This document shows, in pieces, positions 12,565-62,805 of a stretch of 64,000 nt of DNA. A program made the translations under genes and the position numbers. The stretch lies in assembly GCA_018820315.1 (NCBI GenBank), contig JAHJOQ010000121.1, forward strand, positions 1 through 64,000. Reading direction: 5' to 3'. Position 1 is the first letter of the stretch. Every line of letters starts with the position of its first letter. This stretch comes from Candidatus Zixiibacteriota bacterium. GTDB lineage: Bacteria > Zixibacteria > MSB-5A5 > JAABVY01 > JAHJOQ01. Below the pieces are notes generated by a model. The model was not told the origin of the DNA and searched no databases. It worked only from the letters and a program-made list of their open reading frames with translations.

Positions 12565-12616
12565 CTCAACGAGCTTGCTGCGGTGTGGTTTCTGCGGTTT
12601 TCACGCAACACCTGAG

Positions 12617-36587: not shown

Positions 36588-36631
36588 TTATATTATGATA
36601 TTGGCTGGACTTGAAGTCAAGGAGGCCGATA

Positions 36632-37102
36632 ATGAAGGAAGAGATGGTGGAACGGTTGCTGGTGCTCCAGAAGCAAGCTCGAAACATCAGGGAATGGCGG
36701 AGGTTGGAGGTGGTCTGGTTGCGGGAGAGGCTTGGGCTAAGCGGCCCGGAGGTCTCAGCAGCCCTGAACTACAAGCTTCAGACCGTCCACGTCATTTGGC
36801 ATCAATGGATCAGGGAAAAGGAGTTGCTCTTTCGGCGACCCGCTCCCGGCGGTCGCAAACACGCCTATCTGACGCTGGAAGAAGAAAAGGAGTTTCTCGC
36901 TCCCTTTTTCCGAACGGCCGAAGCGGGCGGAGTACTTACTGTCACCGAGATCAAAGAGGCCTATGAAGGGCGGGTGAATCGGAAGGTTGCTCCGTCCACC
37001 GTTTATCGTTTGTTGCACCGGCACGGCTGGCGGAAGATAGTGCCTCGCAAGAGACATCCGAAAAGCGACCCGCAGAAACAGGAGAAGGCAAAAAAAACTT
37101 GA
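36632..37102 (+). CDS. IS630-type transposase, N-terminal frame (orfA)
   Basis: About 156 residues from ATG 36632, which has AAGGAGG six bases upstream; the frame is open from 36611. It is a helix-turn-helix DNA-binding region: REWRRLEVVWLRERLGLSG is a first HTH, and a winged-helix part with NRKVAPSTVYRLLHRHGWRK follows. It ends in KAKKT just after a run of eight A (37090-37097), where ribosomes can slip back one base into the catalytic frame. Confidence 0.85.
   Translation: MKEEMVERLLVLQKQARNIREWRRLEVVWLRERLGLSGPEVSAALNYKLQTVHVIWHQWIREKELLFRRPAPGGRKHAYLTLEEEKEFLAPFFRTAEAGGVLTVTEIKEAYEGRVNRKVAPSTVYRLLHRHGWRKIVPRKRHPKSDPQKQEKAKKT
37090..37097 (+). promoter_or_regulatory. Slippery A8 site for -1 frameshift
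   Basis: Eight A residues lie directly before the orfA stop (TGA 37100-37102). A -1 shift here moves the ribosome into the frame of the catalytic ORF, giving a fused transposase of about 347 residues. The frames differ by exactly -1. Confidence 0.75.
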
Positions 37103-37674
37103 TTCGCCGGGCAATGGCTGCGGGACAGGCCGCGGCCAGTGCGCGAAAAGCGGAGGATATCCCGGTGCGAATCATGTTCATGGACGAAGCAAGGTTTGGC
37201 CGGATCAGCGAGGTGCGCCGCTGCTGGGCGCCAGCCGGTGTCCGTCCTGTGGCCTTAGCCCAGGTGGAGCGGGAGTACAGCTACGCCTATGCCGCCTTGA
37301 GCCCCTTCGACGGCGAATTGATCAGCTTGGTACTACCCTGGGTCAACACAGAGATGATGTCGCTCTTTCTAGGAGAAGCATCGCGTCGCTATCCCAACGA
37401 ACAGCTGGTAATGATCATGGATCAAGCTGGCTGGCACAAAGCTAAACGCCTCAACATTCCCGACAACATAACCTTGCACTGGTTGCCACCATACAGCCCA
37501 GAACTGAATCCCGTCGAGCATCTGTGGGACGACATCCGGGAGAAATGGTTCTCCAACAAGGCCTTCAAGAGCCTCCACGCGGTAGAGGTACAACTCGTAG
37601 AGGCACTACAACACTATCTGTCCTCCACATCAGAACTCAGATCCCTGACACTCTTCCCATGGATGAAACTTTAA
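37099..37674 (+). CDS. IS630-type transposase, catalytic DDE frame (orfB)
   Basis: A 191-residue DDE domain. The three acids are visible: Asp in MFMDEARFG (about residue 30), Asp in MIMDQAGWH (about 110) and Glu in SPELNPVEHLWDD (about 145). The TTG at 37099 overlaps the orfA stop, but expression is more likely through the frameshift. The stop TAA (37672-37674) lies inside the right inverted repeat, as is usual in compact elements. Confidence 0.88.
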   Translation: MIRRAMAAGQAAASARKAEDIPVRIMFMDEARFGRISEVRRCWAPAGVRPVALAQVEREYSYAYAALSPFDGELISLVLPWVNTEMMSLFLGEASRRYPNEQLVMIMDQAGWHKAKRLNIPDNITLHWLPPYSPELNPVEHLWDDIREKWFSNKAFKSLHAVEVQLVEALQHYLSSTSELRSLTLFPWMKL

Positions 37675-45013: not shown

Positions 45014-45100
45014 GGAGAGGTGGCCGAGCGGCTGAAGGCAGCTGCCTGCTAAGCAGTTATACGTTAACGCGTATCCAGGGTTCGAATCCCTGCCTCTCCG
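45014..45100 (+). tRNA. tRNA-Ser (anticodon GCU)
   Basis: Acceptor stem GGAGAGG (45014-45020) pairs with CCTCTCC (45093-45099), followed by discriminator G. D-arm GCCGAGC-type, anticodon stem around CCTGCTAAG with GCT, a long variable arm typical of class II tRNA-Ser (TACGTTAACGCGTA region) and T-arm GGGTTCGAATCCC. The CCA end is not encoded. A tyrosine recombinase follows at 115 bp, so this tRNA may be an integration target. Confidence 0.95.
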
Positions 45101-45214
45101 CTTGATTTGTTGCGGCTCCTGTAAGATTATCCTAGACATAGGCTTATGACTATCCTTCTTGGACTTATGAAGTTCGTGTGCGCAAGATGTGACCAGTGAA
45201 AAGGAGTCGTTCTC

Positions 45215-46312
45215 ATGGGTTCTATCTACAGACGAGGAAAAACCTGGTATGTTGACCTCTATGTCAGAGGCCGACGTATCCGCAGGAAGGTTGGCAGATC
45301 AAAGAAAATCGCCGTGCTTGCCCTCAAGGATGCTGAGGTAAAGGCTGCCAGAGACGAGTTCGGATTCGCAAAGAATGACATCGCCATCGAGAAGCTCCTG
45401 GCTCAGTTCTTGGAATACTCTCAGGCAAACAACTCACCAGCTACATTCACTCGTTACCGCGCAGTGCTTGATCACTTCAACGAATTCCTGAAGGATCATC
45501 AGGATGTTGTCTTTCTGTCCCAGGTCAACCCACGATTGCTCGATGAATACAAGGTCGGTCGCAAAAACGAATGGGTGAATCCGAATGGTGGCAAAGTTGA
45601 ATCGGATGATGATATCACCGATCACACTCGCAAAGGCGCAAGAGCACACACGATCAATTTCGAGATTGATGTCTTCCGAACGATATTCAACCTTGCGATC
45701 AAATGGGGATACTTGAAAGAGAATCCTACGAAGGCTGTTGATCGACTGAAAGTAAAGGACTCCAAGACACCTCGCTTTCTGACCGAGAAGGAATGTCAGC
45801 TGTTGATCGAGCACAGCCCTGATCACCTCTACCCGATCTTCTTCACCTTCCTAAACACTGGCATGCGTAAGGCCGAGCTGGAGAATCTCGAATGGGCAGA
45901 TATCGATCTAAAGCGCCGCAAAATCAAGATCCGCAAGAAAGACTTCTGGCATCCGAAGACGGGTGAACGAGAGATACCAGTCGGTCAGAAGTTACTCGAC
46001 CTCTTAACCAACCTGAATCAGCAGAATGACCAAGGTATCAAGAGCAGTTTTGTATTCCCTGACAAGAGCGGCGGCAAGATCCGAATGAAGCTGCGAGAAC
46101 AACTGATTCGCATCGCAAGGACAGCCGGCATCGAGAATCTCACTCAGCTTCATGCCCTTCGCCACATATTCGCCAGTCACCTCATGATGAAGGGCGTCGC
46201 TCTCCCCAGTGTTCAAAAACTCATGGGCCACTCCGATATCCAAACCACGATGATCTACGCCTACCTTGCACCAGACCATCTGTCAGATGCCGTGGATAAG
46301 CTGGAGTTCTGA
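45215..46312 (+). CDS. Tyrosine recombinase / phage-type integrase
   Basis: A 365-residue site-specific recombinase. N-terminal arm-binding-like stretch (GSIYRRGKTWYVDLYVRGRR), SAM-like core-binding domain (about 55-170) and catalytic domain. Catalytic residues are visible: R218 (NTGMRKAELENLEW), H313-R316 (LHALRHIFASHL), His in LMGHSDIQTT and nucleophile Y348 (MIYAYL). AAGGAG at 45201 sets the ATG. It directly follows tRNA-Ser, the classical place for an island integrase. Confidence 0.93.
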   Translation: MGSIYRRGKTWYVDLYVRGRRIRRKVGRSKKIAVLALKDAEVKAARDEFGFAKNDIAIEKLLAQFLEYSQANNSPATFTRYRAVLDHFNEFLKDHQDVVFLSQVNPRLLDEYKVGRKNEWVNPNGGKVESDDDITDHTRKGARAHTINFEIDVFRTIFNLAIKWGYLKENPTKAVDRLKVKDSKTPRFLTEKECQLLIEHSPDHLYPIFFTFLNTGMRKAELENLEWADIDLKRRKIKIRKKDFWHPKTGEREIPVGQKLLDLLTNLNQQNDQGIKSSFVFPDKSGGKIRMKLREQLIRIARTAGIENLTQLHALRHIFASHLMMKGVALPSVQKLMGHSDIQTTMIYAYLAPDHLSDAVDKLEF

Positions 46313-47055
46313 TATCCGGCACATTTCGAAGTTCGAGTCTCGTCAACCCCCGTTTATCGGACTCGAACATTGCTACCGCCGCCTCATGACGCGACCGAAA
46401 CTGAAAGCGTGTGACTGTCAGCGAGTTGCAGCAGCGCGAAACCCGCCAAATCTGATGTCGTGCCCATCTTGTGACCAACGATCCTGGTTCATCCACAGGA
46501 TCGGCGACCACTGCCATTGCGCTGTAGTCCTCTGACAATTCACGATGGGAGTGTATATCTTCAGGCAAAGTGGGAGTAGTGTTCTGCAACTGAAGACGCA
46601 GCTCGTCTGATGCTGGCTCCCTCTCGACAGAATCCATTTCGGCATTTCATCGCAGTTTGACTCTTTCCCTCCCTCTGCTGTCTGCGCTAATGGAGGAATC
46701 ATTTTATCACTCGGTGCAGCATTGTGGAAATTTGGCGGCATGTTTTTGAAAGCTATTGTCTAAGATATCGCAATATCAGTTTCTGTCAGAAAGCTAAGTT
46801 CTGCAGTGAACACAGTGGGTGATGTGTTCCATAGATTCGTTGATGCCCTTGCTCCTTGCCGCTCCAGACGATCGAGCTTCTGTGCGGCATTCCTGATCCT
46901 GATAAGCATCTTTCCAGATCAATTTGGGATGCTCTGCAAGTCGTCATCACTCAAACCACTTGCGGATACCGGAGTTAGAACTTATCTTCTCACTGATTTG
47001 ATTGAAATCATTACAGAGGCGGCTCCAACACCGAGCAAGTATCGAGGTAACCATC
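46313..47055. other. Intergenic region between integrase and sugar transporter
   Basis: About 740 bp without a supported gene. It holds repeat copy A, a short hairpin (GTTCGAGTC at 46331-46339 and GACTCGAAC at 46360-46368) and the promoter region for the transporter operon. The overlapping ORFs seen here have no recognisable product. Confidence 0.5.
46359..46476. repeat. Dispersed 118-bp repeat, copy A
   Basis: The first of three related copies. Between 46403 and 46476 it matches copy B at about 86 percent by hand count, with a shared block CAGCAGCGCGA. It begins 46 bp after the integrase stop. Confidence 0.75.
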
Positions 47056-48009
47056 ATGTCGCATCCAAATCCTTTGAAAGTCACAACGTCTCTGATCGTT
47101 GCAAGTCTACTGTTGTTCGGCTGCGGCGAGGAGAATGAAAGCGATCTTAAAGAGGAAGCAAAGACTATGTTCGGGGCGGGCTTGACAATAGGTGTCTCTC
47201 TGCTCACTCGTACCCATCCGTTCTATCAGGATTTGGAGGCAGGCTTGCAGGAGGCGGCTGATGAAAATGGCTACAAACTGATCATCACAACCGGTGAATT
47301 CGACGTCGCTCACCAAAAGGACCAACTTCAGGACTTCACTGTCCGAGGTGTCAATGCGATCATTGTCTCACCGTGTGATTCGCGCTCAATAGGGACTTCC
47401 ATAAAAGCGGCAAATGACGCCGGTATCCCTGTCTTTACTGCGGATATTGCCTGTCTTGCCGAAGGTGTCAAGGTAGTTACACATGTTGCTTCCGACAATG
47501 TGGCAGGCGGACGGCTTGCTGCGCAGGCAATAATCGAAGCCATCAACGGCGCAGGCGAAGTTGCAATAATCGACCATCCGGAGGTGGAGTCCGTCATCCA
47601 GCGAGTCAGTGGATTCGAGGAGGAGATGTCCACTGCCCCCGAAGTCAAGATAGTAGCCAGACTATCAGGTCACGGTGTGAAGGACCAAGCGTTTAGGACT
47701 GCCGAGGATATTCTCCAGGCTCATCCGCACCTTAAAGCCATCTTCGGAATCAATGACGACACTATACTCGGTGCACTTGCAGCTATCGAGAAAGCCGGAA
47801 AGGTCAACGAAATCAAATTGGTGGGTTTTGACGCCGTTCCTGAGGCAAGGGCTGCCATTGCTGAAGGTCGGATCTATGCAGATGTCATCCAGAAGCCGCG
47901 TGAAATCGGCCGGAAGACAATTGAAGCTGTGAAGATGTATATGTCCGGCGAGACCGTGCCACCTGCAATTCTGATTCCATGCGGTCTCTTCACAGCGGCC
48001 GATGATTAG
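47056..48009 (+). CDS. Sugar ABC transporter substrate-binding lipoprotein (RbsB-like)
   Basis: About 317 residues from ATG 47056 (GAGGTA upstream; the frame is open from 47002). A lipoprotein signal ends in LLLFGCGEE. The mature protein has the ribose-binding fold of type-1 periplasmic proteins: TIGVSLLTRTHPFYQDLEAG, VNAIIVSPCDSRSIG, DIACLAEGVKVVTHVASDN and AIFGINDDTILGALAAI. It delivers a sugar to the permease below. It is the first gene of a four-gene operon with an alpha-mannosidase, so the ligand is probably mannose or a mannoside. Confidence 0.92.
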   Translation: MSHPNPLKVTTSLIVASLLLFGCGEENESDLKEEAKTMFGAGLTIGVSLLTRTHPFYQDLEAGLQEAADENGYKLIITTGEFDVAHQKDQLQDFTVRGVNAIIVSPCDSRSIGTSIKAANDAGIPVFTADIACLAEGVKVVTHVASDNVAGGRLAAQAIIEAINGAGEVAIIDHPEVESVIQRVSGFEEEMSTAPEVKIVARLSGHGVKDQAFRTAEDILQAHPHLKAIFGINDDTILGALAAIEKAGKVNEIKLVGFDAVPEARAAIAEGRIYADVIQKPREIGRKTIEAVKMYMSGETVPPAILIPCGLFTAADD

Positions 48010-48015
48010 TGAATT

Positions 48016-49536
48016 ATGTCAGTTCATTCTGATTCTTCCAATGGAATTCCCACGCGCTACAGCCACCCTCTGCTTGCCGCGCTTGAATTGACGAAGTCTT
48101 TCCCCGGAGTCCAGGCGCTCCGTGATATATCTTTTGATCTGCGCTCCGGCGAGATTCATGCTCTTGTAGGTGAGAATGGAGCCGGCAAAAGCACTCTTGT
48201 CAAGATTCTGACTGGCGTCCACATTCCCGACAACGGATCGGTTATGGTCGATGGCACTCAAGTATCATTCGGAAATCCGCTCGAAATAATGCGTCTCGGC
48301 GTGAAAGCCATCTATCAGGAATTATCGCTGGTACCCGCTCTCTCGGTGCATGCCAATCTATTCCTTGGTCAGGAGCGGACCACTGCAGGAATCATCAATG
48401 ATGGGAATGAGCGACGAATTGCGGCTGATGTACTGGCAAGACTTGGTGTGGAGATAGATCCCGATGCACTTGTTCGGTCCCTCAGTGTCGCTCAACAGCA
48501 AATGGTCGAGATCGGGCGGGCGCTTGTGAGCAACTGCCGTATTCTGATATTGGATGAACCTACAGCCGCTTTGTCGCCGACGGAAGTTGCACGTCTGTTT
48601 GATATCCTGCGGGAGCTTGTTCGGCAGAAGCTCGGCATTGTTTTCATAAGTCACCGTCTCGAAGAGGTATTGCAGATTGCGAATCGTGTGACGGTCCTAC
48701 GCGACGGTGCGGTAGTGACGACCCGTGAGAAGAGCGAGTTGTCGCGTCAGCAACTGATAGAATTCATGGTCGGACGCTCGCTTGAGAATGAATTTCCGAC
48801 GCGGCAAAGTGCAGAAATACGCGATGGACTCGAAGTCCGAAATCTCTCTGGTGACAGAGTACATGATATAACATTCGTTGCGCATCGCGGCGAAGTGCTT
48901 GGGTTGGCTGGGCTGATGGGCTCTGGGCGTACAGAGATCGCACGATTGATATTCGGTGCTGACCGGGCGAACACCGGATCGGTGACGCTTGATGGCAGAA
49001 TGGTTGATATCAAGTCGCCTCGTGACGCAATCAGGTCGGGGATATGTCTCCTGACAGAAGATAGGAAGACTCAAGGACTCGTATTGAAGCTGTCAGCTCA
49101 AGATAATTTCGCGCTGGGTAATCTGAGCCGGTGGTCGCAAAGAGGTTGGATAAATGACCGTCTCGAGAGATCGCGGTTCCGAAATCATGTTGATGCATTG
49201 CGAATCCGGTTGGCAGATCCGAAGCAGCACGCAGAAACGCTTTCGGGTGGCAATCAGCAGAAACTTCTTGTGGCACGTTGGCTGGAAGCCGAATCGCAGG
49301 TTGTTATTTTCGATGAGCCGACTCGCGGTATCGATGTCGGCGCCAGATATGAGATGTACTGCCTGATTAATGAGCTGACCTCGCTTCGAAAGGCAGTGAT
49401 CGTCATTTCATCCGAATTGCCGGAATTGCTCGGAATGTGTGATCGTCTCCTGGTGATGCGACGCGGGAGAATTGCCGGTGAGATTACCGAAGTGCAAGAT
49501 GCTTCACAGGAACAGGTCATGGCCCTTGCCGTGTGA
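48016..49536 (+). CDS. Sugar ABC transporter ATP-binding protein (RbsA/MglA-like)
   Basis: A 506-residue protein with two nucleotide-binding domains in tandem. The first has Walker A GENGAGKST, signature LSVAQQQM and Walker B ILILDEPTAALSP. The second has the degenerate Walker A GLMGSGRTE and signature LSGGNQQK with VVIFDEPTRGIDVG, as usual in RbsA. It energises import with the permease encoded next; its stop overlaps the permease start. Confidence 0.95.
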   Translation: MSVHSDSSNGIPTRYSHPLLAALELTKSFPGVQALRDISFDLRSGEIHALVGENGAGKSTLVKILTGVHIPDNGSVMVDGTQVSFGNPLEIMRLGVKAIYQELSLVPALSVHANLFLGQERTTAGIINDGNERRIAADVLARLGVEIDPDALVRSLSVAQQQMVEIGRALVSNCRILILDEPTAALSPTEVARLFDILRELVRQKLGIVFISHRLEEVLQIANRVTVLRDGAVVTTREKSELSRQQLIEFMVGRSLENEFPTRQSAEIRDGLEVRNLSGDRVHDITFVAHRGEVLGLAGLMGSGRTEIARLIFGADRANTGSVTLDGRMVDIKSPRDAIRSGICLLTEDRKTQGLVLKLSAQDNFALGNLSRWSQRGWINDRLERSRFRNHVDALRIRLADPKQHAETLSGGNQQKLLVARWLEAESQVVIFDEPTRGIDVGARYEMYCLINELTSLRKAVIVISSELPELLGMCDRLLVMRRGRIAGEITEVQDASQEQVMALAV

Positions 49537-50927
49537 ACCATAACATGAGCTATCGATCCTCATTTGCACGATTCTTATCCGACTACGGCATGCTCGGTGT
49601 GCTGGTACTCCTGTGTCTGTTGTTCTCAGTTCTAACAATGTCGGATCAGCATCCCGTCGGTCGCGATGCTGCAGTCAGTTTGATTTCAGTGCTGCCTGAG
49701 CTTCCTCCCGACGCCGGAGTGGCGATCGTTGTGCAGTCAAACGGCAGCGACAGTATATTCGCCGAGACTCTATTGGACTCTCTACGAGTTCGTGGCATCG
49801 CCGGACATTTGATTGCCGGCGACCCGGCGGCAATTCGTGAAAGTCTGAGAATCCTGGCAGACGAAGGACTTTCAACCATCGCAGTAACGATGGCACTTGA
49901 GCCGATGGTCAGGGCGATACGCTCATCGGTAGCTCAGTTGAGTGAAGCACAGATAGTCACGCCTCCGGTTACGCGCTGGCCCACATTCCTGCTTGCCGAC
50001 AATGTCCGGAATGTGGCGAATCAGATAGCGGTGATAGCGTTAATAGCAATCGGTATGACAATGGTCATCATTACAGCAGGCATCGATCTCTCTGTCGGCA
50101 GCCTCATCGCTCTGTCAGCAGTGATTGCGGCATGGCTCGTCGGCCAATGGGGAGGTGCGAATGCCTCGACATTCGCGATGATAGCTGCGGGAACGCTCGC
50201 AGTGATTTTCAGTGGAGCTGTCGGAGCCTTCAGCGGTCTTATGATAACGCAGTTTCGCATCCCGCCGTTCATAGCCACTCTGGCAATGATGCAGGTTGCG
50301 GCAGGTCTGGGCTATATCATTTCACAAGGTATGCCGATCTATCAACTTCCGGACGGATTCACGGCCCTTGGGCGCTCGGCTGATCCGTTGCTGAAAATTC
50401 CCTATGCAGTGCTCCTGATGATCGGTTTGTATATCGTCGCTCATCTCGTGATGAGCCGAACAACGTTGGGCCGTTACATCTATGCCGTCGGGGGTAATCC
50501 GGAGGCTGCCCGCCTCGCCGGAATACGCGTCAGTGGGGTATTGGTATTCGTTTATGTGATTTGCGGCATGTTGGCCGGGCTCGGCGGAGTTGTGATGGCT
50601 TCTCAGCTCAAAAGCGGGGCACCGACCTATGGTCTTACGTACGAATTATATGTGATCGCTGCAGTAGTTGTTGGAGGCACAAGTCTTAGTGGCGGCGAAG
50701 GCCGCATCTTCGGAACACTGATAGGCGCATTTATCATAGCAGTAATTCAGAACGGCATGAATCTTACCAATGTCGAGAGCTATACTCAGAAGGTAGTGCT
50801 TGGCCTTGTGATACTCGGCGCGGTATTGCTCGACCAATTGAGACAGCGAGGATTTCTAAAACACCTGGCTATGCAGAGAATGGCAAGAAAGCAGGTGTCT
50901 TCTGACACAGTCGAAGGGAAGGAGTAA
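49533..50927 (+). CDS. Sugar ABC transporter permease (RbsC-like) with an extra N-terminal domain
   Basis: A 464-residue permease, more than 100 longer than usual. The membrane core from about residue 160 is ordinary (IGMTMVIITAGIDLSVGSLIALS, then VYVICGMLAGLGGVV and the C-terminal GTSLSGGEGRIFGTLIGA). Between the first membrane segment (about 19-36) and the next lies an insert of about 110 residues with alternating strands and helices (VAIVVQSNGSDSIFAETLL, LSTIAVTMALEP), reminiscent of one lobe of a periplasmic sugar-binding protein. Start is GTG 49533 or ATG 49545. Confidence 0.9.
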   Translation: MNHNMSYRSSFARFLSDYGMLGVLVLLCLLFSVLTMSDQHPVGRDAAVSLISVLPELPPDAGVAIVVQSNGSDSIFAETLLDSLRVRGIAGHLIAGDPAAIRESLRILADEGLSTIAVTMALEPMVRAIRSSVAQLSEAQIVTPPVTRWPTFLLADNVRNVANQIAVIALIAIGMTMVIITAGIDLSVGSLIALSAVIAAWLVGQWGGANASTFAMIAAGTLAVIFSGAVGAFSGLMITQFRIPPFIATLAMMQVAAGLGYIISQGMPIYQLPDGFTALGRSADPLLKIPYAVLLMIGLYIVAHLVMSRTTLGRYIYAVGGNPEAARLAGIRVSGVLVFVYVICGMLAGLGGVVMASQLKSGAPTYGLTYELYVIAAVVVGGTSLSGGEGRIFGTLIGAFIIAVIQNGMNLTNVESYTQKVVLGLVILGAVLLDQLRQRGFLKHLAMQRMARKQVSSDTVEGKE

Positions 50928-50930
50928 CGC

Positions 50931-53900
50931 ATGAGAATCATAGTGAAGATATTGGTGATCTGCCTTATTCTGGGATGTATGACCAGCTTGGCACAATCGC
51001 CGGAAAATGTGGCGGGATCTGAACGACAGTTGCTGATGGTCGGGACAGCGCATCTGGATACGCAGTGGCGCTGGACTATCCAAAACACGATCAACGAGTA
51101 TATTCCATCCACTTTTCGGGACAATTTCAAACTACTCGATCAGTTTCCGGGCTATGTCTTCAGTTTCGAAGGTGCTTTTCGGTATATGTTGATCAAGGAA
51201 TACTATCCCGACGACTACGAGCTTCTCAAGGGCTACATCAACAGCAACCGTTGGAGAGTGATTGGCAGTTGGGTTGATGCGGTCGATGTCAACATCCCGT
51301 CATTCGAGTCTCTCGTCAGACAGACACTCTATGGCAACGGATATTTCAAACGTGAGTTCGGCAAGACCAGCCGGGATATCTTCCTTCCAGACTGCTTCGG
51401 ATTTGGCTACGCGCTTCCGTCAATCGCACGCCATTGTGGTCTTCAGAGTTTTTCCACGCAGAAGCTCTCCTGGGGTTCCTCTGTAGGAGTGCCATTTGAT
51501 ATCGGCGTATGGACAGGAGTCGACGGCTCGTCAATTTTCGGCGGTCTCAAGCCGGGAGCCTATGTCAATCGCATTGAAGACGACTTGAGTCGCGATACTC
51601 TCTGGCTCGCCCAGATCGATAGTCAGGGAACTGCATCAGGTTTATATGCCGGATACGGATATTTCGGAACGGGAGATACCGGAGGCGCACCCGACTCGGC
51701 GTCTGTCGATTGGCTTCAGCGATCAGAGGCTAGTGACGGTCCCATCAGGGTGTGGTGTGGAGGAGCGGATGACCTTGTCGATATGGCGTTGGAAGCCGAT
51801 ACCAACCTCCTGCCGCATTACCGTGGAGAGCTCCTCATGACTCGTCATGGCGTTGGCTGCTACACATCCCAGGCAGCGATGAAACGTTGGAATCGAAAGA
51901 ATGAACTGCTGGCCGATGCCGCGGAGAGGGCATCGGTGATCGCCTCGCATCTCAGAGGATTCAGCTATCCGGGAGAGACTCTTCGAGACAGTTGGGTACG
52001 GTTTCTGTGGCATCAGTTCCATGATGATCTCACCGGCACAAGCATCCCCGAGGCGTATGAATTCTCGTGGAGTGACGAGATACTGGCGATGAACCGATTT
52101 GCATCGGTGTTAGAGAACGCGGTTGAAGCCACAGTTTCGGCTCTCGATACGCGGGCTGAAGGAGTACCCGTTGTTTTGTTCAATCCTCTTTCGATCGAGC
52201 GGACTGATGTCGTGGAAGCATCAGTCAAGTTCAATGAGTCAACTCCTGAGTACGTGCGTGTGATTGGTCCCGATGGCAGAGAGGTGCCTTCGCAGTTGCT
52301 AAGCACAAATGGCAATGAAGTGATGCTGCTGTTCGCGGCCACCGTCCCCTCAGTAGGCTATTCCGTTTATGACATTAGATCCGCTAATAAGCCATCATCA
52401 ATGTCGAACTCTCTCAAAGTCAGTACGACCGGCCTCGAAAATGAAAGATACAAGGTTGCTATCGACGCCGACGGAAATGTGGCATCGATCTTCGACAAAA
52501 TGCAGCAACAAGAATTGCTTAGCGCGCCGATTCAATATCAGCTTCTCTTTGATAAGCCAAGGCAATGGCCGGCATGGGAAATTCAGTACGAGGATATTAT
52601 GCAGCCCCCTCTGGCTGTGCTCGGCAACCCCGAGTCAATCGAGGTGATTGAAGAGGGACCGGTGCGCGCCGCGGTTAAGGTGATTCGGAAGATCGGCGAC
52701 AGCGAATTTGCAACTATCATTCGGCTCTGTGGTGGCTTGTCTGGAGACCGTATTGAGTTCTTCAATGACGTGAACTGGTATGAGAAGGAACGCCTCCTGA
52801 AGGTCGCATTCCCGGTTACCGCTGCCAATGACAGTGTTACGTATGATCTTGGACTGGGAACAATACGACGCGGCCTGAATCGAGAGAAGCTGTATGAGGT
52901 CCCCGGGCACCAATGGGCGGATATCACGGAAGCATCCGGTGAGTATGGGGTCGCTGTGCTCAACGACTGCAAGTATGGCTGGGATCATCCCGACCGTGGG
53001 ACTCTGCGACTCACGTTGATCCATACACCGGGTGTGTTTGAATCATGGATGTGGGTTGGTGACCAGAAATCGCAGGATTTGGGGCATCACCAGTTTTCAT
53101 TCGCTGTCTCCGGACATCCGGATGACTGGCGGCAAACTGTGCCTTGGCAGGCGGCGCGGTTCAATCAGCCAATTGTCGCATTTCAGACCGACAGCCGTCA
53201 GGGGCCACTGGGCAAGTCATATTCATTCCTGAAGCTGGTTGAACAGTCAGATGGAGGTGATTCCGACGAACTCCCCGGAGCTTTCGTTAACTCAGTCAAG
53301 CAGGCTGAAGAGAGTGACGAGATTATCGTGCGAGTCAAGGAGTTGCAGGGACTGTTTCACAGTAGACTCAAACTGCGCTTCGCTGATGCAGTCGTTTCGG
53401 CGCGAGAGGTGGATGGTTGCGAGGATTCGTTGGACGTCGCTAAGGTGGGAAACGGCGAATTGACCTTCGATCTCAAGCCGTATCAACCGAAAGCGTTTGC
53501 AATCAGATTGCGGCAGGACGAAAATGGCGCGACTGCCCATCCTGAGTCGTGGCGCGTGGATCTTCCTTTCAACGAAGACGGGATCAGCTCTGATCGGAAC
53601 CGGCTGGATGGTGATTTCGACGGTCAAGGAAATACTCTATCAGGCGACTTGCTCCCGGATCACTGCACTTTTCAAAACATTGAATTCAATCCTGGATCAA
53701 CTGATGACGGTCACAACAATATGGTGGCGTGTAAGGGACAGACGATACAGTTGCCTCAAAAACCGTTCAATCGTCTGTACATTCTGGCTGCTTCGACAAA
53801 CGGCCCCTCTTCAGAGACTTTCACTGTGGACAACCGCACATTCGAGGTAGATATTCCTGACTATGCCGAACCGATGGGACAGTGGAATAACCGCGTAAAT

Positions 53901-54863
53901 GGCAGACTGCTGATGGAGGAAGCACATGAAATCGCACCCGCGTTTATCAGTCATGTGCCTGTAGCATGGTATGGCTGTCATCGTCATACGACTGACGGTG
54001 ACAATGAGGCATATCGCTTCACATATCTTCATGCCTATCGCATGGGTTTTCCGAATGGCGCTCGTACTCTTATTCTGCCGGATAATCCACGTGTTAAGGT
54101 GCTCGCAATTACTGCAGCACAGTCATCGTACGCGAATGTTCGGCCGGTTGAGCCACTCTACGACATCGAGTCCGGCACCTTTGCCAGGATCTCCGCCGAA
54201 CGGACCGCTTTCCTCGATCCTGTGCCTGTAACGCTATCGACCCCGATTCCGGGAGCTGCGGTACATTACACTCTCGATGGGACCGACCCAACGGAGACAT
54301 CTCCGATTTATGTCGAGCCAATCACGATAGCCGCGACGTCGACTGTGAAGGCGCGAGCCATCAGACAAGGTTTCGACGACCGGTATGTCACCGCTATGTC
54401 ATTTCAGAAGCTGAGTCCTCATCCGTCGCATGTGATCACTGACGTCGCGCCGGGACTCAACGCTCGGTATTTCGAAGGAAGCTGGAGCAAAGTGCCGGAA
54501 TTCGATACGATTGCTGCTCTCCGCGAGTTTGTGGCGGATCAGGTTCTTCTTCCACCCTTTGCGCGTGATGAAGATTTTGGTATGACGTTCACTGGTCAGA
54601 TCAACGTTCCTGCTGACGGTTTGTATGAGTTTGAGATTAGTTCAGACGATGGCAGCCTTCTCTGGATTTCCGATTCGCTGGTTGTGGACAATGATGGTCT
54701 TCATGGCGGCGGGTTTGTTGGTGGAGCAATTGCTTTGAAGGCTGGGTATCATCCGATTCGAGTATACATGTTCCAGGCCAAGGGTGATCGAGATCTGCAG
54801 ATGCGACTGACGTGCCCTCAAATGCAAGGACAATCTGTACCAGCGGATTGGCTGTTCCATTGA
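50931..54863 (+). CDS. Exported GH38 alpha-mannosidase with CHB_HEX_C and PA14 domains
   Basis: A 1,310-residue exported glycoside hydrolase. The signal peptide includes a possible lipobox (LILGC, C16). The GH38 catalytic domain starts at about 33: zinc ligands H41 and D43 (GTAHLDTQWRW), nucleophile D153 (FLPDCFGFG) and zinc-site His in HQFHDDLTGTSI near 360. Middle and C-terminal GH38 beta-domains follow to about 870. Then come an uncharacterised module rich in Asp and Trp, a CHB_HEX_C_1 domain (YTLDGTDPTETSPIYVEPI, near 1105) and a PA14 carbohydrate-binding domain (about 1160-1305). It starts three bases after the permease stop with GGAAGGAG. Expected role: release of mannose from surface glycans for import. 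Confidence 0.92.
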   Translation: MRIIVKILVICLILGCMTSLAQSPENVAGSERQLLMVGTAHLDTQWRWTIQNTINEYIPSTFRDNFKLLDQFPGYVFSFEGAFRYMLIKEYYPDDYELLKGYINSNRWRVIGSWVDAVDVNIPSFESLVRQTLYGNGYFKREFGKTSRDIFLPDCFGFGYALPSIARHCGLQSFSTQKLSWGSSVGVPFDIGVWTGVDGSSIFGGLKPGAYVNRIEDDLSRDTLWLAQIDSQGTASGLYAGYGYFGTGDTGGAPDSASVDWLQRSEASDGPIRVWCGGADDLVDMALEADTNLLPHYRGELLMTRHGVGCYTSQAAMKRWNRKNELLADAAERASVIASHLRGFSYPGETLRDSWVRFLWHQFHDDLTGTSIPEAYEFSWSDEILAMNRFASVLENAVEATVSALDTRAEGVPVVLFNPLSIERTDVVEASVKFNESTPEYVRVIGPDGREVPSQLLSTNGNEVMLLFAATVPSVGYSVYDIRSANKPSSMSNSLKVSTTGLENERYKVAIDADGNVASIFDKMQQQELLSAPIQYQLLFDKPRQWPAWEIQYEDIMQPPLAVLGNPESIEVIEEGPVRAAVKVIRKIGDSEFATIIRLCGGLSGDRIEFFNDVNWYEKERLLKVAFPVTAANDSVTYDLGLGTIRRGLNREKLYEVPGHQWADITEASGEYGVAVLNDCKYGWDHPDRGTLRLTLIHTPGVFESWMWVGDQKSQDLGHHQFSFAVSGHPDDWRQTVPWQAARFNQPIVAFQTDSRQGPLGKSYSFLKLVEQSDGGDSDELPGAFVNSVKQAEESDEIIVRVKELQGLFHSRLKLRFADAVVSAREVDGCEDSLDVAKVGNGELTFDLKPYQPKAFAIRLRQDENGATAHPESWRVDLPFNEDGISSDRNRLDGDFDGQGNTLSGDLLPDHCTFQNIEFNPGSTDDGHNNMVACKGQTIQLPQKPFNRLYILAASTNGPSSETFTVDNRTFEVDIPDYAEPMGQWNNRVNGRLLMEEAHEIAPAFISHVPVAWYGCHRHTTDGDNEAYRFTYLHAYRMGFPNGARTLILPDNPRVKVLAITAAQSSYANVRPVEPLYDIESGTFARISAERTAFLDPVPVTLSTPIPGAAVHYTLDGTDPTETSPIYVEPITIAATSTVKARAIRQGFDDRYVTAMSFQKLSPHPSHVITDVAPGLNARYFEGSWSKVPEFDTIAALREFVADQVLLPPFARDEDFGMTFTGQINVPADGLYEFEISSDDGSLLWISDSLVVDNDGLHGGGFVGGAIALKAGYHPIRVYMFQAKGDRDLQMRLTCPQMQGQSVPADWLFH

Positions 54864-55800: not shown

Positions 55801-55957
55801 ACGGTTATGCCCTTTATTTCATCAACTTCTCAAAGTACAAATCATAAGATACACTAACCGCAATCGTCAATCCTTGACAAGCTCTCCTCAAGCACCTATT
55901 TTCAATACAATGACTTACCGGTCATGATTCGCAGCAGCTAAGATCAAAGATCAGACA

Positions 55958-57025
55958 ATGGGCAACACACAGAATATCATCAGGGACTTCTTGAAATCAC
56001 CTCTCGATTTGAGGAAATTCAATGAATTCTATAAGCTGATCTATAGACACACATTAGGCTGCGTTAGCTTTCTTGAACGCAAGGGATACATTCTACCGTC
56101 AGAAACAGGTGACAGGGAGCAACGGCTTTCAGATTTGACTATCGACATACTCGGGACGCTTCTGAGATGCGATGGCTCCCGACCGTTTCATCTCGTATCT
56201 GAGCACTTTGAAAGATATGGGATGCACGATTATGATCAAGTGTCGAGCGAGGATATTCGCTCCTGCCTGTCGGTGCTTCTCAACGGCCACGCCCGGCAGG
56301 AACTCCACAAGTTGCGCAAACAGGATGATCCGCAGATTGACAATCTCAAGAGACGATTCAAGGATATTTTGAAAGGCAAAGAATTCGCTTCATGCAGCGC
56401 GGATTCGGGCCGTGCAGAGTACGTGCATCTGTTGAAGTATGCACATGACTTGAGGAAGGATATGAGGCGCTCGACCGGTGAATTCCTGGAATCGGTATCG
56501 GAGGATGCTTTCAGAGAGAGCAATTCCAGAATCACATGGTGTCATGATATTTTTGAGCGAATAAACGACGAGACCGGCTACCAGAATTTTGCAATCAAGC
56601 ATGAACTCTTGAGCACGGTCGTTTCTATCAACTGTAGAGAATTAGAATTCTATGCTGACCTGATGCACAAACCGGGCGGTCCGAAAGCGGGAATGCTGCG
56701 GCGCGAACTTGATCGAGGTATGGCCGCGACGCTCGAATGGGCCGAGACTGATCTGCTCATCAAGTTTCGCGAGAACGGACGAATCTCTGAGAGTGAATCA
56801 GTCCGATTGATGACTGCGCTGAGTGCATATCTCTCTGATTTTTGTGAGCATGGCCAGACCGACCCGATTCCGAGATACTTCAAGGAGAATATGTCGCCGG
56901 AGGCATGCGACCGGTATCTTGATGACTACAAGTACGTTTTTGAGACGCTCGTGAACAAATCGATTGACTATCTGAAGGAATTTGTCAGAAAAAAAGCTAC
57001 ATCTCTCGGATATGGGGACTATTAG
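55958..57025 (+). CDS. Sigma-70-region-2-like protein, first gene of regulatory operon
   Basis: A 355-residue soluble protein of unrecognised family. The first 130 residues have the layout of an ECF-type sigma region 2: FNEFYKLIYRHTLGCVSFL, then DREQRLSDLTIDILGTLL in place of the 'DAEDLxQEVFL' element, and a helix with NGHARQELHKLRKQDDP before a gap. The remaining 220 residues are helical and rich in charged residues, with no visible region 4. The next gene encodes an anti-sigma-type zinc finger, which supports the reading. It may instead be a degenerate sigma-like regulator. Confidence 0.5.
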   Translation: MGNTQNIIRDFLKSPLDLRKFNEFYKLIYRHTLGCVSFLERKGYILPSETGDREQRLSDLTIDILGTLLRCDGSRPFHLVSEHFERYGMHDYDQVSSEDIRSCLSVLLNGHARQELHKLRKQDDPQIDNLKRRFKDILKGKEFASCSADSGRAEYVHLLKYAHDLRKDMRRSTGEFLESVSEDAFRESNSRITWCHDIFERINDETGYQNFAIKHELLSTVVSINCRELEFYADLMHKPGGPKAGMLRRELDRGMAATLEWAETDLLIKFRENGRISESESVRLMTALSAYLSDFCEHGQTDPIPRYFKENMSPEACDRYLDDYKYVFETLVNKSIDYLKEFVRKKATSLGYGDY

Positions 57026-57054
57026 ATTTATGAACATTTACTGGAGGGCGGAGT

Positions 57055-57909
57055 ATGCATCCGTCAAAGGATAGACTACGACTCTTCGCGGAACAGGGCA
57101 TGCAGGACGCAGCCGAGCGAGAGCGCATCTCCGACCATATCGAAGAATGCGAGTTTTGCTCGGAATTCTGTGAGGATTACAGGTCTTATCTCGAATCCAT
57201 CGAGGCCGTTAAGGATGCCGACATCCCGTCTCATGCGCTGCGTTCTGCGGATACGCTCTTCAGAAGAGCAATTCGCGGTATGACTATCGCCCTGCAGCCC
57301 CTAACCGAAGATGTCTCATCGCCTCTCAAGCTGGCCGCTGACGGCAGCGAGAGCTTCAAGCCCGAAATAGTGAACATAGCGACACTCTGCTCAGAGAGTC
57401 CCGAGGCCATCCTGCGAATAATGCGCGACAGCACTAAGGGAATCGAGTATGTGCAATTGATTTCCGACGACCCGAATTTAACGGGTCATATCATGATACA
57501 GGTTCCGGAGATTGGCTGGGAATTGATCACCGATCGTAACGGCAAGGCAGTTGTCGAGCGCACACCTGAAGTCGAATTGTCGAAATTGAGATGGCAAATC
57601 AAGCTGCCGGATGCGATCTTCTCGATGAAGCCTCTTGAATACGATCCTGATGAGACCACATATTCCGAGAAAGTAGAACTCACTTCGCCGGAATCTGACA
57701 GAATATCGGTCGAATTTCGCGGCAAGAGAGAGGGCAAACAGATCGTGATCCGAATTCTCGAACTCGATGGCAAGCAGGATTTTGGGGAGGTGCGCGTGCT
57801 TGTATCTCAGGGTGACATTTCCAGAACATCAAAGACATCGACAGCGAGCACTGTCTCCTTCGAGCTGACCGATTCGGAATCAGAAGTCGATATCAGGTTA
57901 TTCAGGTGA
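57055..57909 (+). CDS. Zinc-finger (zf-HC2) anti-sigma-like protein
   Basis: A 284-residue protein with an N-terminal anti-sigma zinc finger, HxxxCxxC as H28-C32-C35 in HIEECEFCSEFC (a fourth Cys at 39). No membrane segment follows, unlike most such anti-sigma factors. The C-terminal half (about 95-284) is beta-rich with two Ig-like or carboxypeptidase-regulatory-like halves (IQVPEIGWELITDRNGKAVV; RISVEFRGKREGKQIVIRI). GGAGGGCGGAG precedes the ATG. The stop overlaps the GTG of the Lon-like gene, or is followed five bases on by its ATG. Confidence 0.65.
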   Translation: MHPSKDRLRLFAEQGMQDAAERERISDHIEECEFCSEFCEDYRSYLESIEAVKDADIPSHALRSADTLFRRAIRGMTIALQPLTEDVSSPLKLAADGSESFKPEIVNIATLCSESPEAILRIMRDSTKGIEYVQLISDDPNLTGHIMIQVPEIGWELITDRNGKAVVERTPEVELSKLRWQIKLPDAIFSMKPLEYDPDETTYSEKVELTSPESDRISVEFRGKREGKQIVIRILELDGKQDFGEVRVLVSQGDISRTSKTSTASTVSFELTDSESEVDIRLFR

Positions 57910-60215
57910 GAGCAATGTCCCTGTTAGAATTTGCCAGAGAATTTGCGCGCCTCAAGTCTGACCTGGCGGCTTGCAACATTCCTGATGTCCAGCTCGTCCG
58001 GCTTGTAGATTTCTGGCCAACCCTCCAGCAAAACGCTGACAATCCTTCCTATCAAAGCTATGTCGATGAGCTCGTACCCATCATATTGCATTTAATCAAC
58101 GAAGAGAGCCTATATGATCTGACAATAGAAGAGTTGCAAACGATACAGTCGATGCTGCAGCAACTGCACCTTCTTGAACGGCTGACACCGCTTCACGACA
58201 GACTTGCTGAGCGCAACAGAACAGTCTCTGAGCAGTTGGCGATGCGATACTTCTACGCTGGGTCGATTGAAGATGGTCTGCACGTTGTCGCAGAGATGTC
58301 CGGCGGCACTATTCAGACCAGATTTCCGGAAGATGTCGACGACCTCAGCGAATTCGAAGCGTTCCAAGCGATGATGGAGCACGTACGCGGTCGACACAGC
58401 TCGCTCGACGCATTCCTGAGCAGTCTCCACGAGAAATGGCAAACGCAACGCGAGTCAATCTCTCAGGAGAGAATCTACGCGCTGTTTGTCGACAGAGACG
58501 ATTCCGGCCGTGCATGGCGCGGAAGGATGAAAGCGTTGTCAGGAAAGGTAGAGCTGTTTGGGAAATCAGCGACTACCGACGAGATAACGTTCGATAATCA
58601 GATCAAGTCACCAGATGATCCGTTTATCGGGGTTGCATATCAGTCACTCGAAGCCGTGCGGCAATTGATAAAACGCTCTGGATTCAGAAGACAATGCGAA
58701 GCGTATTATCATGCGCATTTCGGCGTCAAGAATAGTAAGCAGACATTCACCGGCGATTCGATCGGTTTAGCGATTGGACTGCTGACATATACGCAGCTTC
58801 TGAAGCCTGAGATCCTGCGTCAGGATAACTTCATTGCATCCGATATCGCAGTTACCGGCAGTATCGACAGCGGCGGCACGGTCAACTCTGTCAATGACGC
58901 CACTCTCAATCTCAAGATCGAGCGGTCGTTTTTCTCTCCTGTAAGGCATTTGGTCGTACCCGATGCAAACTTGCCTGTCGTTCGGGATCATCTTGAGAAA
59001 TTGCGCGAGCAATATCCACGACGCCGTCTGAAACTGATCGGAGTCGAATCCCTGACCGACGCAATCGAGAACCGAAATATCATCCGCGAAGAGAAAGTTG
59101 GCCTGGGGGTATATGTTGCACGGAAGACACTCCGCCGTACACGCTCAACCAAACTCCAAATCCCAATTCTTCTCGCCCTCGGCTATCTCCTGCTATGCTT
59201 GATATATCCGAAGGCGTGGGTGGGGTTTGATTGGAATCCGCAGTATGTGCGAGTCACGGAGAGGGGATTTCAGGCTTTGAACAGGGATTCGATAGAAGTC
59301 TGGGCCGTTGAATATGAATGCGAGTCAATTCGCGCAAGCTCCAAGTGGGAGATAGGCGATATTGATGGTGATCTACTAAACGAGATTGCGTTCATTCCAA
59401 ATATTTCAGCAGCTAATCCCTGCGAGAGTAATACAATATTGTGGGTATATCAAGATGATGGCAGTCTCATGTTTCAACGCAGCGCCGTTTTGGCTGACAA
59501 TATCCTCGGAGATTCAAGCCGCGAAGTGCCTTGGGCAGCTGGGGGAATCGAATTCGTTCAAGGCAAAGGGAATCATCTTGTAGTAGCATCCATCCTCAGG
59601 TCCTATCCGTCTCAAGCGCATATAACCCTCTGGAGTTTGAGAGGAGAACTGCTGGGTTGGTATGTTCATCCGGGCATGGTGCAAGTCAGCGAAGACCTGT
59701 TTTCGACAGAACGCACAGGGCAACTCGTTTTTCTTGGCATTAACAACGTCATGGGATGCGCATCAATGTTCGCATTACCGATAGACTCTACTGTCGGGTT
59801 CTCTCCGCCCCATGACTGTCGATATTACGATTCCTCCTCATTCGTGCCCGGCAGTCAATTGAGCTACATTCTCTTTCCTCAGACAGACCTCAGCACTTCA
59901 TATCAGAATGAATATAATGGGCCAAACAAGTTGTGGGTATTCCAGAATGGCAGCACGGCAGCTGACATCACTGAACACATACCTGATCAGGAATCTAACA
60001 TTTGCTATGACTTCGATGCGAGTTACAGGATTGCTGGCGTTTCAATTAGTGACGGGTTCAAACAGAGCAGAAATATCCTGGTAAGCGATGGGAAACTCAA
60101 TCCTGTCGACTGGCAATCCTATTCAAACACCTTGCGAGACGCCGTTACTTATTGGTCCGCTTCTGGGTGGGTGACCGAGGGCAAACTCCGCGCTCTTGAA
60201 TCTCTCTCAAAATAG
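57906..60215 (+). CDS. One-pass membrane protein with Lon-protease-like domain and C-terminal sensor region
   Basis: A 769-residue protein of unusual build. Residues 1-230 are helical. Residues about 245-390 resemble the Lon (S16) proteolytic domain: FTGDSIGLAIGLLTYTQLL with Ser285 in the place of the catalytic serine, IAVTGSIDSGGTVNSVND and LVVPDANL. The lysine of the Ser-Lys dyad would be K337, about two residues later than expected, so activity is uncertain. A membrane segment lies at about 417-434 (PILLALGYLLLCLIYP). The last 330 residues would be outside the membrane and hold FG-GAP/propeller-like text (IGDIDGDLLNEIAFI). No AAA+ domain is present. Start: GTG 57906 or ATG 57915. Confidence 0.65.
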   Translation: MRAMSLLEFAREFARLKSDLAACNIPDVQLVRLVDFWPTLQQNADNPSYQSYVDELVPIILHLINEESLYDLTIEELQTIQSMLQQLHLLERLTPLHDRLAERNRTVSEQLAMRYFYAGSIEDGLHVVAEMSGGTIQTRFPEDVDDLSEFEAFQAMMEHVRGRHSSLDAFLSSLHEKWQTQRESISQERIYALFVDRDDSGRAWRGRMKALSGKVELFGKSATTDEITFDNQIKSPDDPFIGVAYQSLEAVRQLIKRSGFRRQCEAYYHAHFGVKNSKQTFTGDSIGLAIGLLTYTQLLKPEILRQDNFIASDIAVTGSIDSGGTVNSVNDATLNLKIERSFFSPVRHLVVPDANLPVVRDHLEKLREQYPRRRLKLIGVESLTDAIENRNIIREEKVGLGVYVARKTLRRTRSTKLQIPILLALGYLLLCLIYPKAWVGFDWNPQYVRVTERGFQALNRDSIEVWAVEYECESIRASSKWEIGDIDGDLLNEIAFIPNISAANPCESNTILWVYQDDGSLMFQRSAVLADNILGDSSREVPWAAGGIEFVQGKGNHLVVASILRSYPSQAHITLWSLRGELLGWYVHPGMVQVSEDLFSTERTGQLVFLGINNVMGCASMFALPIDSTVGFSPPHDCRYYDSSSFVPGSQLSYILFPQTDLSTSYQNEYNGPNKLWVFQNGSTAADITEHIPDQESNICYDFDASYRIAGVSISDGFKQSRNILVSDGKLNPVDWQSYSNTLRDAVTYWSASGWVTEGKLRALESLSK

Positions 60216-60312
60216 TTTCTACAGATTGTTCCTCTGGTACCTATGCATATGGTAGAAGAAAGGCGCGCGCAAGGTGCTTGTACAACAAACTAACTACTGC
60301 GAGGAGGTATCA

Positions 60313-62805
60313 ATGCAACACACTAAGATCCTTTCTATTATCTCTGCTCCGATTCCAGAGGTGTTGCTGGTACTCACGATTCTGTTTCTCGGTGCGCAGA
60401 GCGGCTATGCCGATGGCGCACTCTTCGACCCGGCAATCAACTATCCCGTCGGTAGCAACCCCATTTCAGTTCTTGCCGCCGACCTTAATGGCGATAGCAT
60501 TCCTGACCTTGCTGTGGCCAATCACCACTCAGATAATGTATCTATCCTGCTCAACAGCGATAGTACGTTTCAGGCAGCCATCAACTATGCAGCCGGTAAT
60601 GGACCCTTTTCAGTCTTCGCTGGCGACCTTGATGGTGACGGCTGTAAGGACCTGGCCGTTGCCAATGCCGTTTCAGACGACGTGTCTATCCTGTTGAACA
60701 ACTGCGAAGGCATATTTACTCAGAATGGTGCATACGCAATTGGTGATCACGCCTATTCGGTTTTCGTTGCTGACCTTGATGGTGACGGCCATCTTGACCT
60801 GGCCGTGGCAAACGCAGCGGCGGGCACCTTGTCCATCCTAATCAACAACGGTGACGGCACATTTCAAGATACTATCAACTATCCAGTTGTTGGTGGCCCC
60901 TATTCGGTCATTGCTGCCGACCTTAATGGTAGCGGCCATCTTGACTTAGCGACGGCCAATCCCGGGACGGACAACGTGTCCATTCTCTTCAACAACGGTG
61001 ATGGTACCTTTCAGGATACCATTAACTACCCAGTCGGTGATGCCCCCTTTGATGTCTTTGCTGCCGACCTTGATGGTAACGGCCATCTTGATCTGGCGAC
61101 GGCCAATCAACAGTCGGACAACGCATCGGTACTGTTGAATCATGGTGACGGTACTTTTTCGGATGCCGTCCACTACCCAGCGGGTGATGGGCCGCAGGGA
61201 GTTACTGCCGCCGATTTTGACGGCGACGGAGATTCTGATCTGGCGGTGGCGAATCCTTTGTCGGATGATGTGACTATCCTATTGAACAACGGTGATGGTA
61301 CATTTGCTCTGGATTCCGCGTACACGGTCGGTAGCCATCCCTGGGGTATCTTTGCTTCTGACCTCGATCTGGACGGTGATTCCGACTTGGCGGTGGCCTG
61401 CTATTACGACAACAGTGTCTCGATTCTTGAAAACCTGACCGGGCCGTATACCCGACCCGACACCCTCTTCGTCGGTAATTCGGCTATCGAGCCGAGTTGT
61501 ATGGAAGCTGAATTGCCAATCTATCTGGCCAACCAGGAACCGGTTAGCGCGGGACATATTGTCCTCGACTATAGTGAAGCTGGATGGCCGTTCCATCCGT
61601 CAGATGTTAGTTTTGCTGGTACTCGTGTGGAGTCGTGGAACCCCACGCTGGGTGTAATCGATTCGACAACAATGACTATCGACATTGGATTTTTCAACTT
61701 GAGCGGAACCCCTCTCGATCCTGCCGACGAGATTACGAGAGATATTCCGATCGCTAAGATCATGTTCAATGATGAGTGCGCATTCGCAGGTGAGATGTGG
61801 CTGCAGCCACCGGATACAACGACTCTGTGTGCTGAATTCGATTGCTTCAGCACTTCGCTCGTTGATACGCTCGGTGTACTATATGCGCCTGATGTCACAT
61901 TCGATTCAACTAAGATCTCCGGCTATGTGCCCGGTGACGCCGACGGTTCATGTACTGTTGACATTGATGATGTTGTCTATGTAATCAACTACATCTTTAT
62001 GGGCGGACCAGCGCCTGTTTGTGAAAGCAAAGCAGGTGACGCGAACGGAAGCTGCGGCATCGACATCGATGATGTTGTCTATCTCATTGCATACATCTTT
62101 GCAGGAGGGCCGGAGCCGGTACCGTACTGTTATATCCCACTGCCATTCGAAAAGACCATCGTCGGTAACGCAAGCCTCTCCATCGCAGGCAATGCGAACG
62201 AAGAGAGTTCCACAATCTCTCTCACCGCCGACCGCGATGTGCAGGCTATTCAGCTTGAGTTTGCTGTCGGTCATGACGTTGTGAATGTTCGTGTCGAGAG
62301 TCTTGTCGATGGTATCGAGACGTTCTACGGATATTCTGGTGGTGTGCTTCGTATCGGGCTGCTCGATCTGTACGGCACCCACATGATTCCGGCTGGAAGC
62401 AATGACATAGTCCAAATCACCGGTGCAAATGGCAAGCTGGAATTGACAAATTCGATCATCGTCGCAAAGGGGGGCGGGCATCTGAATTCATCTGTGAGCG
62501 AGCAGGCATCAAGTGGAATCCTGCCGCTTAATTTCGCGCTGAATCAGAACCACCCCAACCCATTCAATCCAACAACCGAGATCAGCTTCAGTCTGCCATC
62601 CGACTCATACGTCAAACTCGAGATTCACAACATCATGGGTCAACGCGTAACAACCCTCGTAGATGATTACAAACAGGCTGGTTATCACACAGTGACATGG
62701 AGTGGTCGCGATGATGGCGGAGCATCTGTTGCTTCGGGAGTATACTTCTATCGAATCGAAGCTGGAGAATACTCTGATTGCAAGAAGATGCTGCTGATGA
62801 AATAA
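60313..62805 (+). CDS. Secreted FG-GAP/VCBS propeller protein with dockerin pair and sorting tail
   Basis: About 830 residues from ATG 60313, set by GAGGAGG at 60301; the frame is open from 60274. Signal peptide (ending QSGYA). Seven or so FG-GAP/VCBS repeats (about 30-385) with the pattern A-D-L-D/N-G-D-G-x-x-D-L-A-V-A-N, predicted to form a beta-propeller. Then a cohesin-like beta-domain (about 395-560), two dockerin-type calcium repeats (DADGSCTVDIDDVVYVINYI and DANGSCGIDIDDVVYLIAYI), a second beta-domain and an 'NHPNPFNPTTEISF' type sorting tail ending in MLLMK. It is a surface or released adhesion or binding protein. Confidence 0.88.
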   Translation: MQHTKILSIISAPIPEVLLVLTILFLGAQSGYADGALFDPAINYPVGSNPISVLAADLNGDSIPDLAVANHHSDNVSILLNSDSTFQAAINYAAGNGPFSVFAGDLDGDGCKDLAVANAVSDDVSILLNNCEGIFTQNGAYAIGDHAYSVFVADLDGDGHLDLAVANAAAGTLSILINNGDGTFQDTINYPVVGGPYSVIAADLNGSGHLDLATANPGTDNVSILFNNGDGTFQDTINYPVGDAPFDVFAADLDGNGHLDLATANQQSDNASVLLNHGDGTFSDAVHYPAGDGPQGVTAADFDGDGDSDLAVANPLSDDVTILLNNGDGTFALDSAYTVGSHPWGIFASDLDLDGDSDLAVACYYDNSVSILENLTGPYTRPDTLFVGNSAIEPSCMEAELPIYLANQEPVSAGHIVLDYSEAGWPFHPSDVSFAGTRVESWNPTLGVIDSTTMTIDIGFFNLSGTPLDPADEITRDIPIAKIMFNDECAFAGEMWLQPPDTTTLCAEFDCFSTSLVDTLGVLYAPDVTFDSTKISGYVPGDADGSCTVDIDDVVYVINYIFMGGPAPVCESKAGDANGSCGIDIDDVVYLIAYIFAGGPEPVPYCYIPLPFEKTIVGNASLSIAGNANEESSTISLTADRDVQAIQLEFAVGHDVVNVRVESLVDGIETFYGYSGGVLRIGLLDLYGTHMIPAGSNDIVQITGANGKLELTNSIIVAKGGGHLNSSVSEQASSGILPLNFALNQNHPNPFNPTTEISFSLPSDSYVKLEIHNIMGQRVTTLVDDYKQAGYHTVTWSGRDDGGASVASGVYFYRIEAGEYSDCKKMLLMK

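Follow-up and report, generated by a model that had tools for sequence, protein, structure and literature searches.

The closest precedent for the locus described here is the CalpL/CalpT/CalpS system of type III CRISPR, in which a Lon-type protease, an anti-sigma factor and an ECF sigma factor are combined and the signal-activated Lon protease cleaves the anti-sigma factor (PMC11417357, PMC12751052). Our locus would follow the same tripartite plan of protease, anti-sigma factor and transcription factor, with proteolysis a prediction in our case. It differs from Calp in that the Lon-like protein, P3, lacks a SAVED domain (Pfam, 30 members) and carries a transmembrane (TM) helix and an outer propeller, the anti-sigma-like protein, P2, belongs to the zf-HC2 type, their partner, P1, shows no recognisable likeness to a sigma factor, and a single surface protein encoded next to the three genes appears to be the output. 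Pairs of ECF sigma factors and zf-HC2 anti-sigma factors (RsiW and ChrR types) share with the cassette the zinc motif and an adjoining soluble partner. However, P2 has no membrane segment, P1 has no sigma homology, and the dedicated protease would be cytoplasmic and Lon-like instead of a site-1/site-2 cascade; P2 also departs from the regulated intramembrane proteolysis of anti-sigma factors in not being membrane-anchored (25 homologues). Lon proteases (MEROPS S16) resemble P3 in fold, in the Ser-Lys dyad and in the motifs around the dyad, whereas P3 lacks AAA+, is membrane-anchored, has a propeller outside and contains a two-residue insertion before the lysine. In FecI-FecR/TonB-receptor signalling, an outside signal leads to the dedicated promoter of a surface protein gene, as proposed here, but no component family is shared as far as tested. 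No description of the cassette P1-P2-P3-G4 was found in the literature searched.

Four genes make up the cassette in the window, which is the whole stretch of 64,000 nucleotides that was analysed.

55958..57025, forward strand: P1, 355 aa, a soluble helical protein of no known family and the candidate regulator held by P2
57055..57909, forward strand: P2, 284 aa, a zf-HC2 anti-sigma-like protein with a C-terminal beta-rich domain and without a membrane anchor
57906..60215, forward strand: P3, 769 aa, with a helical N-terminus, a Lon-like domain, one TM helix and an outer propeller-like region
60274..62805, forward strand: G4, 843 aa, an exported FG-GAP propeller with a dockerin-like segment and a T9SS/FlgD-type C-terminal tail, the likely output

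The start of P3 overlaps the stop of P2 by 4 nt, and P1, P2 and P3 form a tight run. Searched singly against Pfam and NCBIfam, none of the three window proteins reached any family. Homologues of P3 were found in 38 of the 133 genomes of the phylum Zixibacteria, and P1, P2 and P3 stand in this order in 29 loci, which with few exceptions come from this phylum, followed by a fourth gene that codes for an exported protein of variable content; this statement covers loci that no contig end interrupts and that show no visible breakage, L052 and L055 being broken or partial. One locus, L034, belongs to Abyssobacteria, where a P3 match occurs in one of three genomes, and none of the plasmid records searched carries P3. 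The preliminary description had proposed three coupled genes and had suggested examining their neighbourhood in relatives; the open reading frames lie where it placed them, and the conservation of their order outside this genome bears the proposal out. The order is kept even where P1 identity drops to about 15%. Protein distances across the 29 loci correlate strongly (Mantel r 0.90 for P1-P2, 0.73 for P1-P3 and 0.75 for P2-P3; 0 of 2000 permutations), which indicates that the three proteins are inherited together, and P1 with P2 is the tightest pair within the trio. Downstream of G4 in locus L044 (about 4180-4345, reverse strand), there is a remnant of a second P3 3' end with a second copy of the DNA element discussed below, a sign of local cassette duplication.

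Taken together, these genes look like an undescribed route to switch on a surface-protein gene in a little-known phylum. On balance, we consider it probable that P1-P2-P3-G4 is a self-contained cell-surface signalling cassette in which P3 cleaves P2 and the freed P1 acts at two DNA elements, E4 and E2. P1 would be made from a sigma70-type promoter and kept inactive in the cytoplasm by the soluble zf-HC2 protein P2. The outer propeller of P3 would sense an outside signal and gate the cytoplasmic Lon-like Ser-Lys protease, which works without an ATPase in this model; activated P3 would then cleave P2 and free P1. As a sigma-like or other promoter-specificity factor, P1 might work at E4 and E2, so that the surface protein G4 would be expressed and P2 and P3 refilled. 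In such a system, a Lon-type protease would form the cytoplasmic domain of a membrane receptor, and this receptor would be tied through gene order to an anti-sigma-like protein and to dedicated promoter-like elements. It would extend the CRISPR Calp logic, in which Lon cuts an anti-sigma factor, to ordinary outside sensing.

The assignment of P2 to the anti-sigma type is carried by its zinc motif and by profile similarity.

57136..57159, forward strand: zinc motif H28-x3-C32-x2-C35 of P2, invariant in 25 of 25 homologues

As is typical of zf-HC2 anti-sigma factors, the H-x3-C-x2-C motif of P2 lies within an N-terminal helical domain. The Pfam zf-HC2 model was matched by 10 of the 25 homologues, and the best PDB match of the P2 profile was the anti-sigma factor RsiW (E 4.6e-4), with the DdvA and ChrR antisigma factors lower in the list. 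No hydrophobic stretch of TM strength was found in the 25 homologues. The earlier reading of P2 as a zf-HC2 protein with H28, C32 and C35 and without a membrane anchor thus holds on all three counts. In addition, all 25 homologues share an invariant Ala-Ala pair, A94-A95 (LAADG/IAAQG), located after the zinc finger and before the C-terminal domain; it is a possible cleavage or contact site.

The identity of P1 is less clear-cut. It is predicted to be helical, and the preliminary description had seen in it a sigma region 2-like texture. A comparison with sigma factors, including its N-terminal half alone, gave nothing above decoys in Pfam, NCBIfam, PDB profiles or hhalign against 16-23 sigma factors of the phylum. 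The hhalign probability of the P1 profile against the phylum sigma factors was 0.2-0.8%, inside the decoy range, and neither region 2 nor region 4 of sigma70/ECF factors was found with Pfam or hhalign. The likeness therefore goes no further than texture, and no profile supports sigma similarity. There was likewise no detectable sequence similarity to DNA-binding families. The AF2 model of P1 is poor (pLDDT 60) because only four sequences were usable, and its fold search returned no significant matches. Assignment of P1 to the sigma factors by homology was accordingly dropped, both the profile tests and the fold search of this low-confidence model having given nothing, and with P1 scoring within decoys, no sequence-recognisable sigma factor adjoins P2. 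Nevertheless, given the promoter-like elements, P1 is more likely to read DNA, as a sigma-like factor or otherwise, than its sequence alone would suggest. The cassette thus poses a choice between P1 as a diverged sigma factor and P1 as a new kind of transcription factor. We think it unlikely that P1 founds a new promoter-specificity family, unrelated in sequence to sigma70 and sigma54, that would work under a zf-HC2 inhibitor and a membrane receptor-protease whose ATPase-less Lon domain replaces the intramembrane cascade.

The E4/E2 element pair is a line of evidence that is new here. The consensus, first seen by comparing the gaps between P3 and G4 across loci, is bipartite and consists of TTTTCTACAAA, exactly 15 nt and CTATT.

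55874..55902, forward strand: sigma70-type promoter of P1, TTGACA-N17-TATTTT, 55 nt upstream of the P1 start
56993..57023, forward strand: element E2, AAAGCTACATC-N15-CTATT, overlapping the P1 3' end, 31 nt before P2; score 0.6
60215..60245, forward strand: element E4, GTTTCTACAGA-N15-CTATG, directly 3' of the P3 stop, 29 nt before G4

In a leave-one-out analysis of the regions downstream of P3, 31 of 34 loci scored 7.6 or more with the 15-nt gap, compared with a 90% value of 5.7 in 262 other downstream regions. The 99% control value, which is raised because further true copies are present among the controls, was exceeded by 19 of the 34 regions. The gap length itself is specific, with 26 regions above threshold at gap 15 and 0-6 at other gaps. 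Across the 133 genomes, the near-consensus element occurred 9 times (5 for the reversed control), and eight of these nine occurrences sit immediately 3' of a P3 gene or fragment. Upstream of P2 the same element recurs in a weaker form, with p 1.3e-7 in a comparison with other genes and solely at gap 15. In clade A this copy shares sequence with the P1 coding end, and in several clade B loci it is intergenic. The E2 copy of the window is weak alone, yet its position and spacing match those of its relatives. Position 7 of the two elements differs between the clades: clade A has A there (12/12 and 19/20) and clade B has G (7/7 and 9/10), although the Fisher values for this position overstate independence because the compared sequences are related. 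Such co-variation would follow from a single co-evolving factor that recognises both elements. The regions upstream of P1 look sigma70-like, those of 27 loci scoring above those of 247 other genes (p 9e-8).

These data describe a dedicated, module-specific, promoter-like element with two boxes at fixed spacing, for which P1 is the candidate reader. Since the element is found only beside the cassette, its reader probably lies inside the cassette, and P1 is proposed because, P2 being of the anti-sigma type, it is the sole soluble protein without another assigned role. The element pair also means that the target genes of the cassette are known in advance. A wider regulon in this genome was considered and rejected: there are four exact matches to the pattern, of which only E4 is intergenic and the rest lie inside open reading frames, and with one mismatch allowed there are 22 matches against 17 for the reversed control. 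Beyond G4, the element copy of L044 trails the duplicated P3-end remnant, and a further copy in L068 is isolated.

The same cassette could also be served by an ordinary ECF sigma factor encoded elsewhere that reads the elements, with P2 inhibiting this distant sigma factor and P1 serving as an adaptor or scaffold, such as another anti-sigma factor or a carrier of the substrate. We regard this as rather unlikely. The lack of sigma homology in P1 speaks for it, as do the 15 Sigma70_r2 matches in the genome and, in L068, an ECF-sigma-like gene (200 aa) paired with a zf-HC2-type gene of its own (196 aa) just 3' of G4 (11543-12749), with an element-like site upstream. However, the sister locus L058, which also has an ECF-like gene of the L068 type, lacks the element-like site, and hardly any copy of the near-consensus element lies away from P3 genes. 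A recognisable sigma gene was present in only five of the examined loci (L055, L057, L058, L060 and L068), so that such linkage is not general; an unlinked sigma factor may be involved. The co-evolution of P1 with P2, the tightest of the three pairs, also argues against a distant partner for P2.

Instead of being promoters, the elements might serve as RNA signals for processing or translation control at one end of a transcript, 3' or 5'; we consider this improbable. Their location at the 3' ends of P1 and P3, with overlap of the P1 coding end in clade A, would suit such signals, and a short CTAT...ATAG repeat follows some of the elements. Against this, the layout of two boxes is asymmetric, with a single fixed gap of 15 nt and promoter-like spacing, and the distance to the G4 start varies. 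Sigma70-like sites are not in excess in the same regions, upstream of P2 and G4.

In the signalling cassette that we favour, the protease would be P3, whose parts are as follows.

58638..59075, forward strand: Lon-like domain, residues 245-390, from profile, hhalign and fold matches
58758..58760, forward strand: codon of Ser285 (GDSIG), the putative nucleophile of the Ser-Lys dyad, invariant in 30 of 30 homologues and aligned with the Lon serine
58914..58916, forward strand: codon of Lys337, the dyad lysine, invariant in 30 of 30 and aligned with the Lon lysine after a two-residue insertion
59154..59210, forward strand: single TM helix, residues 417-435
59238..60212, forward strand: outer propeller-like region, residues 445-769, with FG-GAP matches in 13 of 30 members and a PDB match to YesW

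The 30 homologues share 25-43% identity with the window P3. Taken singly, 6 of the 30 gave weak matches to Lon_C (best E 1.5e-4), while the family profile matched the putative protease La homologue 1z0b in the PDB (E 1.9e-6), and hhalign of the P3 alignment against the Lon proteases of the phylum itself gave 95%. In a PADLOC analysis of the four module proteins, the only match of P3 was a weak one to a CARF-Lon model (E 0.024). A fold search against Lon domains, one of the checks suggested at the outset, was positive: with the predicted structure of P3, Foldseek retrieved Lon protease domains of the PDB with probability 1.00 and a TM score of up to 0.70 on the target. Pfam gave no AAA match, and a Walker A motif was absent from all 30 members, in agreement with the initial view of a Lon-like domain without an AAA+ ATPase. 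The preliminary description had considered the catalytic lysine to be out of its standard place. This can be corrected, as Lys337 occupies the canonical Lon position once the two-residue insertion, which sits where Lon has a GG turn, is allowed for. The 256-position domain profile has only six invariant columns, two of which are this serine and lysine, and the dyad falls exactly on the Lon catalytic positions, so that protease activity is predicted; the pLDDT of the model is below 50 around Ser285, and the position of the dyad is taken from the sequence alignment. That the domain is a non-proteolytic switch signalling through binding only is improbable, since the alignment and invariance of Lys337 remove the main argument for it. 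The low model confidence around Ser285 and the absence of an AAA+ domain from the chain speak for such a switch; against it stand two catalytic residues in place among so few invariant columns.

The topology of P3 also agrees with what had been suggested, namely one membrane pass with the protease-like half inside and a propeller outside. The flanks of the single TM helix have a mean net charge of +4.2 on the N side and -0.5 on the C side in the 30 homologues, and the N-flank is strongly positive in all of them, which places the Lon-like N-terminal half inside the cell. The outer half is propeller-like by its FG-GAP matches and by its similarity to the propeller lyase YesW.

The gene next after P3 codes for an exported protein in most loci, with FG-GAP propeller, LamG, GH43 or lactonase-type domains. 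A T9SS/FlgD-type C-terminal secretion tail was present in eight of the nine G4 proteins tested. The idea that a neighbouring exported protein is the output has gained ground, G4 being the conserved fourth gene and preceded by the module's own DNA element.

Several features were also observed around the cassette in the window. About 1.1 kb directly upstream of P1 (54864-55957) contains no convincing gene. It is preceded by a large exported GH38 alpha-mannosidase with PA14 and CHB_HEX_C domains (50931-54863), which lies behind an ABC sugar transporter set (47002-50927). Two adjoining open reading frames at 36611-37674 resemble a split IS630-type transposase, the helix-turn-helix part being followed by the DDE part. 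Finally, the arrangement of a tRNA-Ser gene (45014-45101) with a tyrosine-recombinase-like gene (45215-46312) directly behind it is typical of an integration site.
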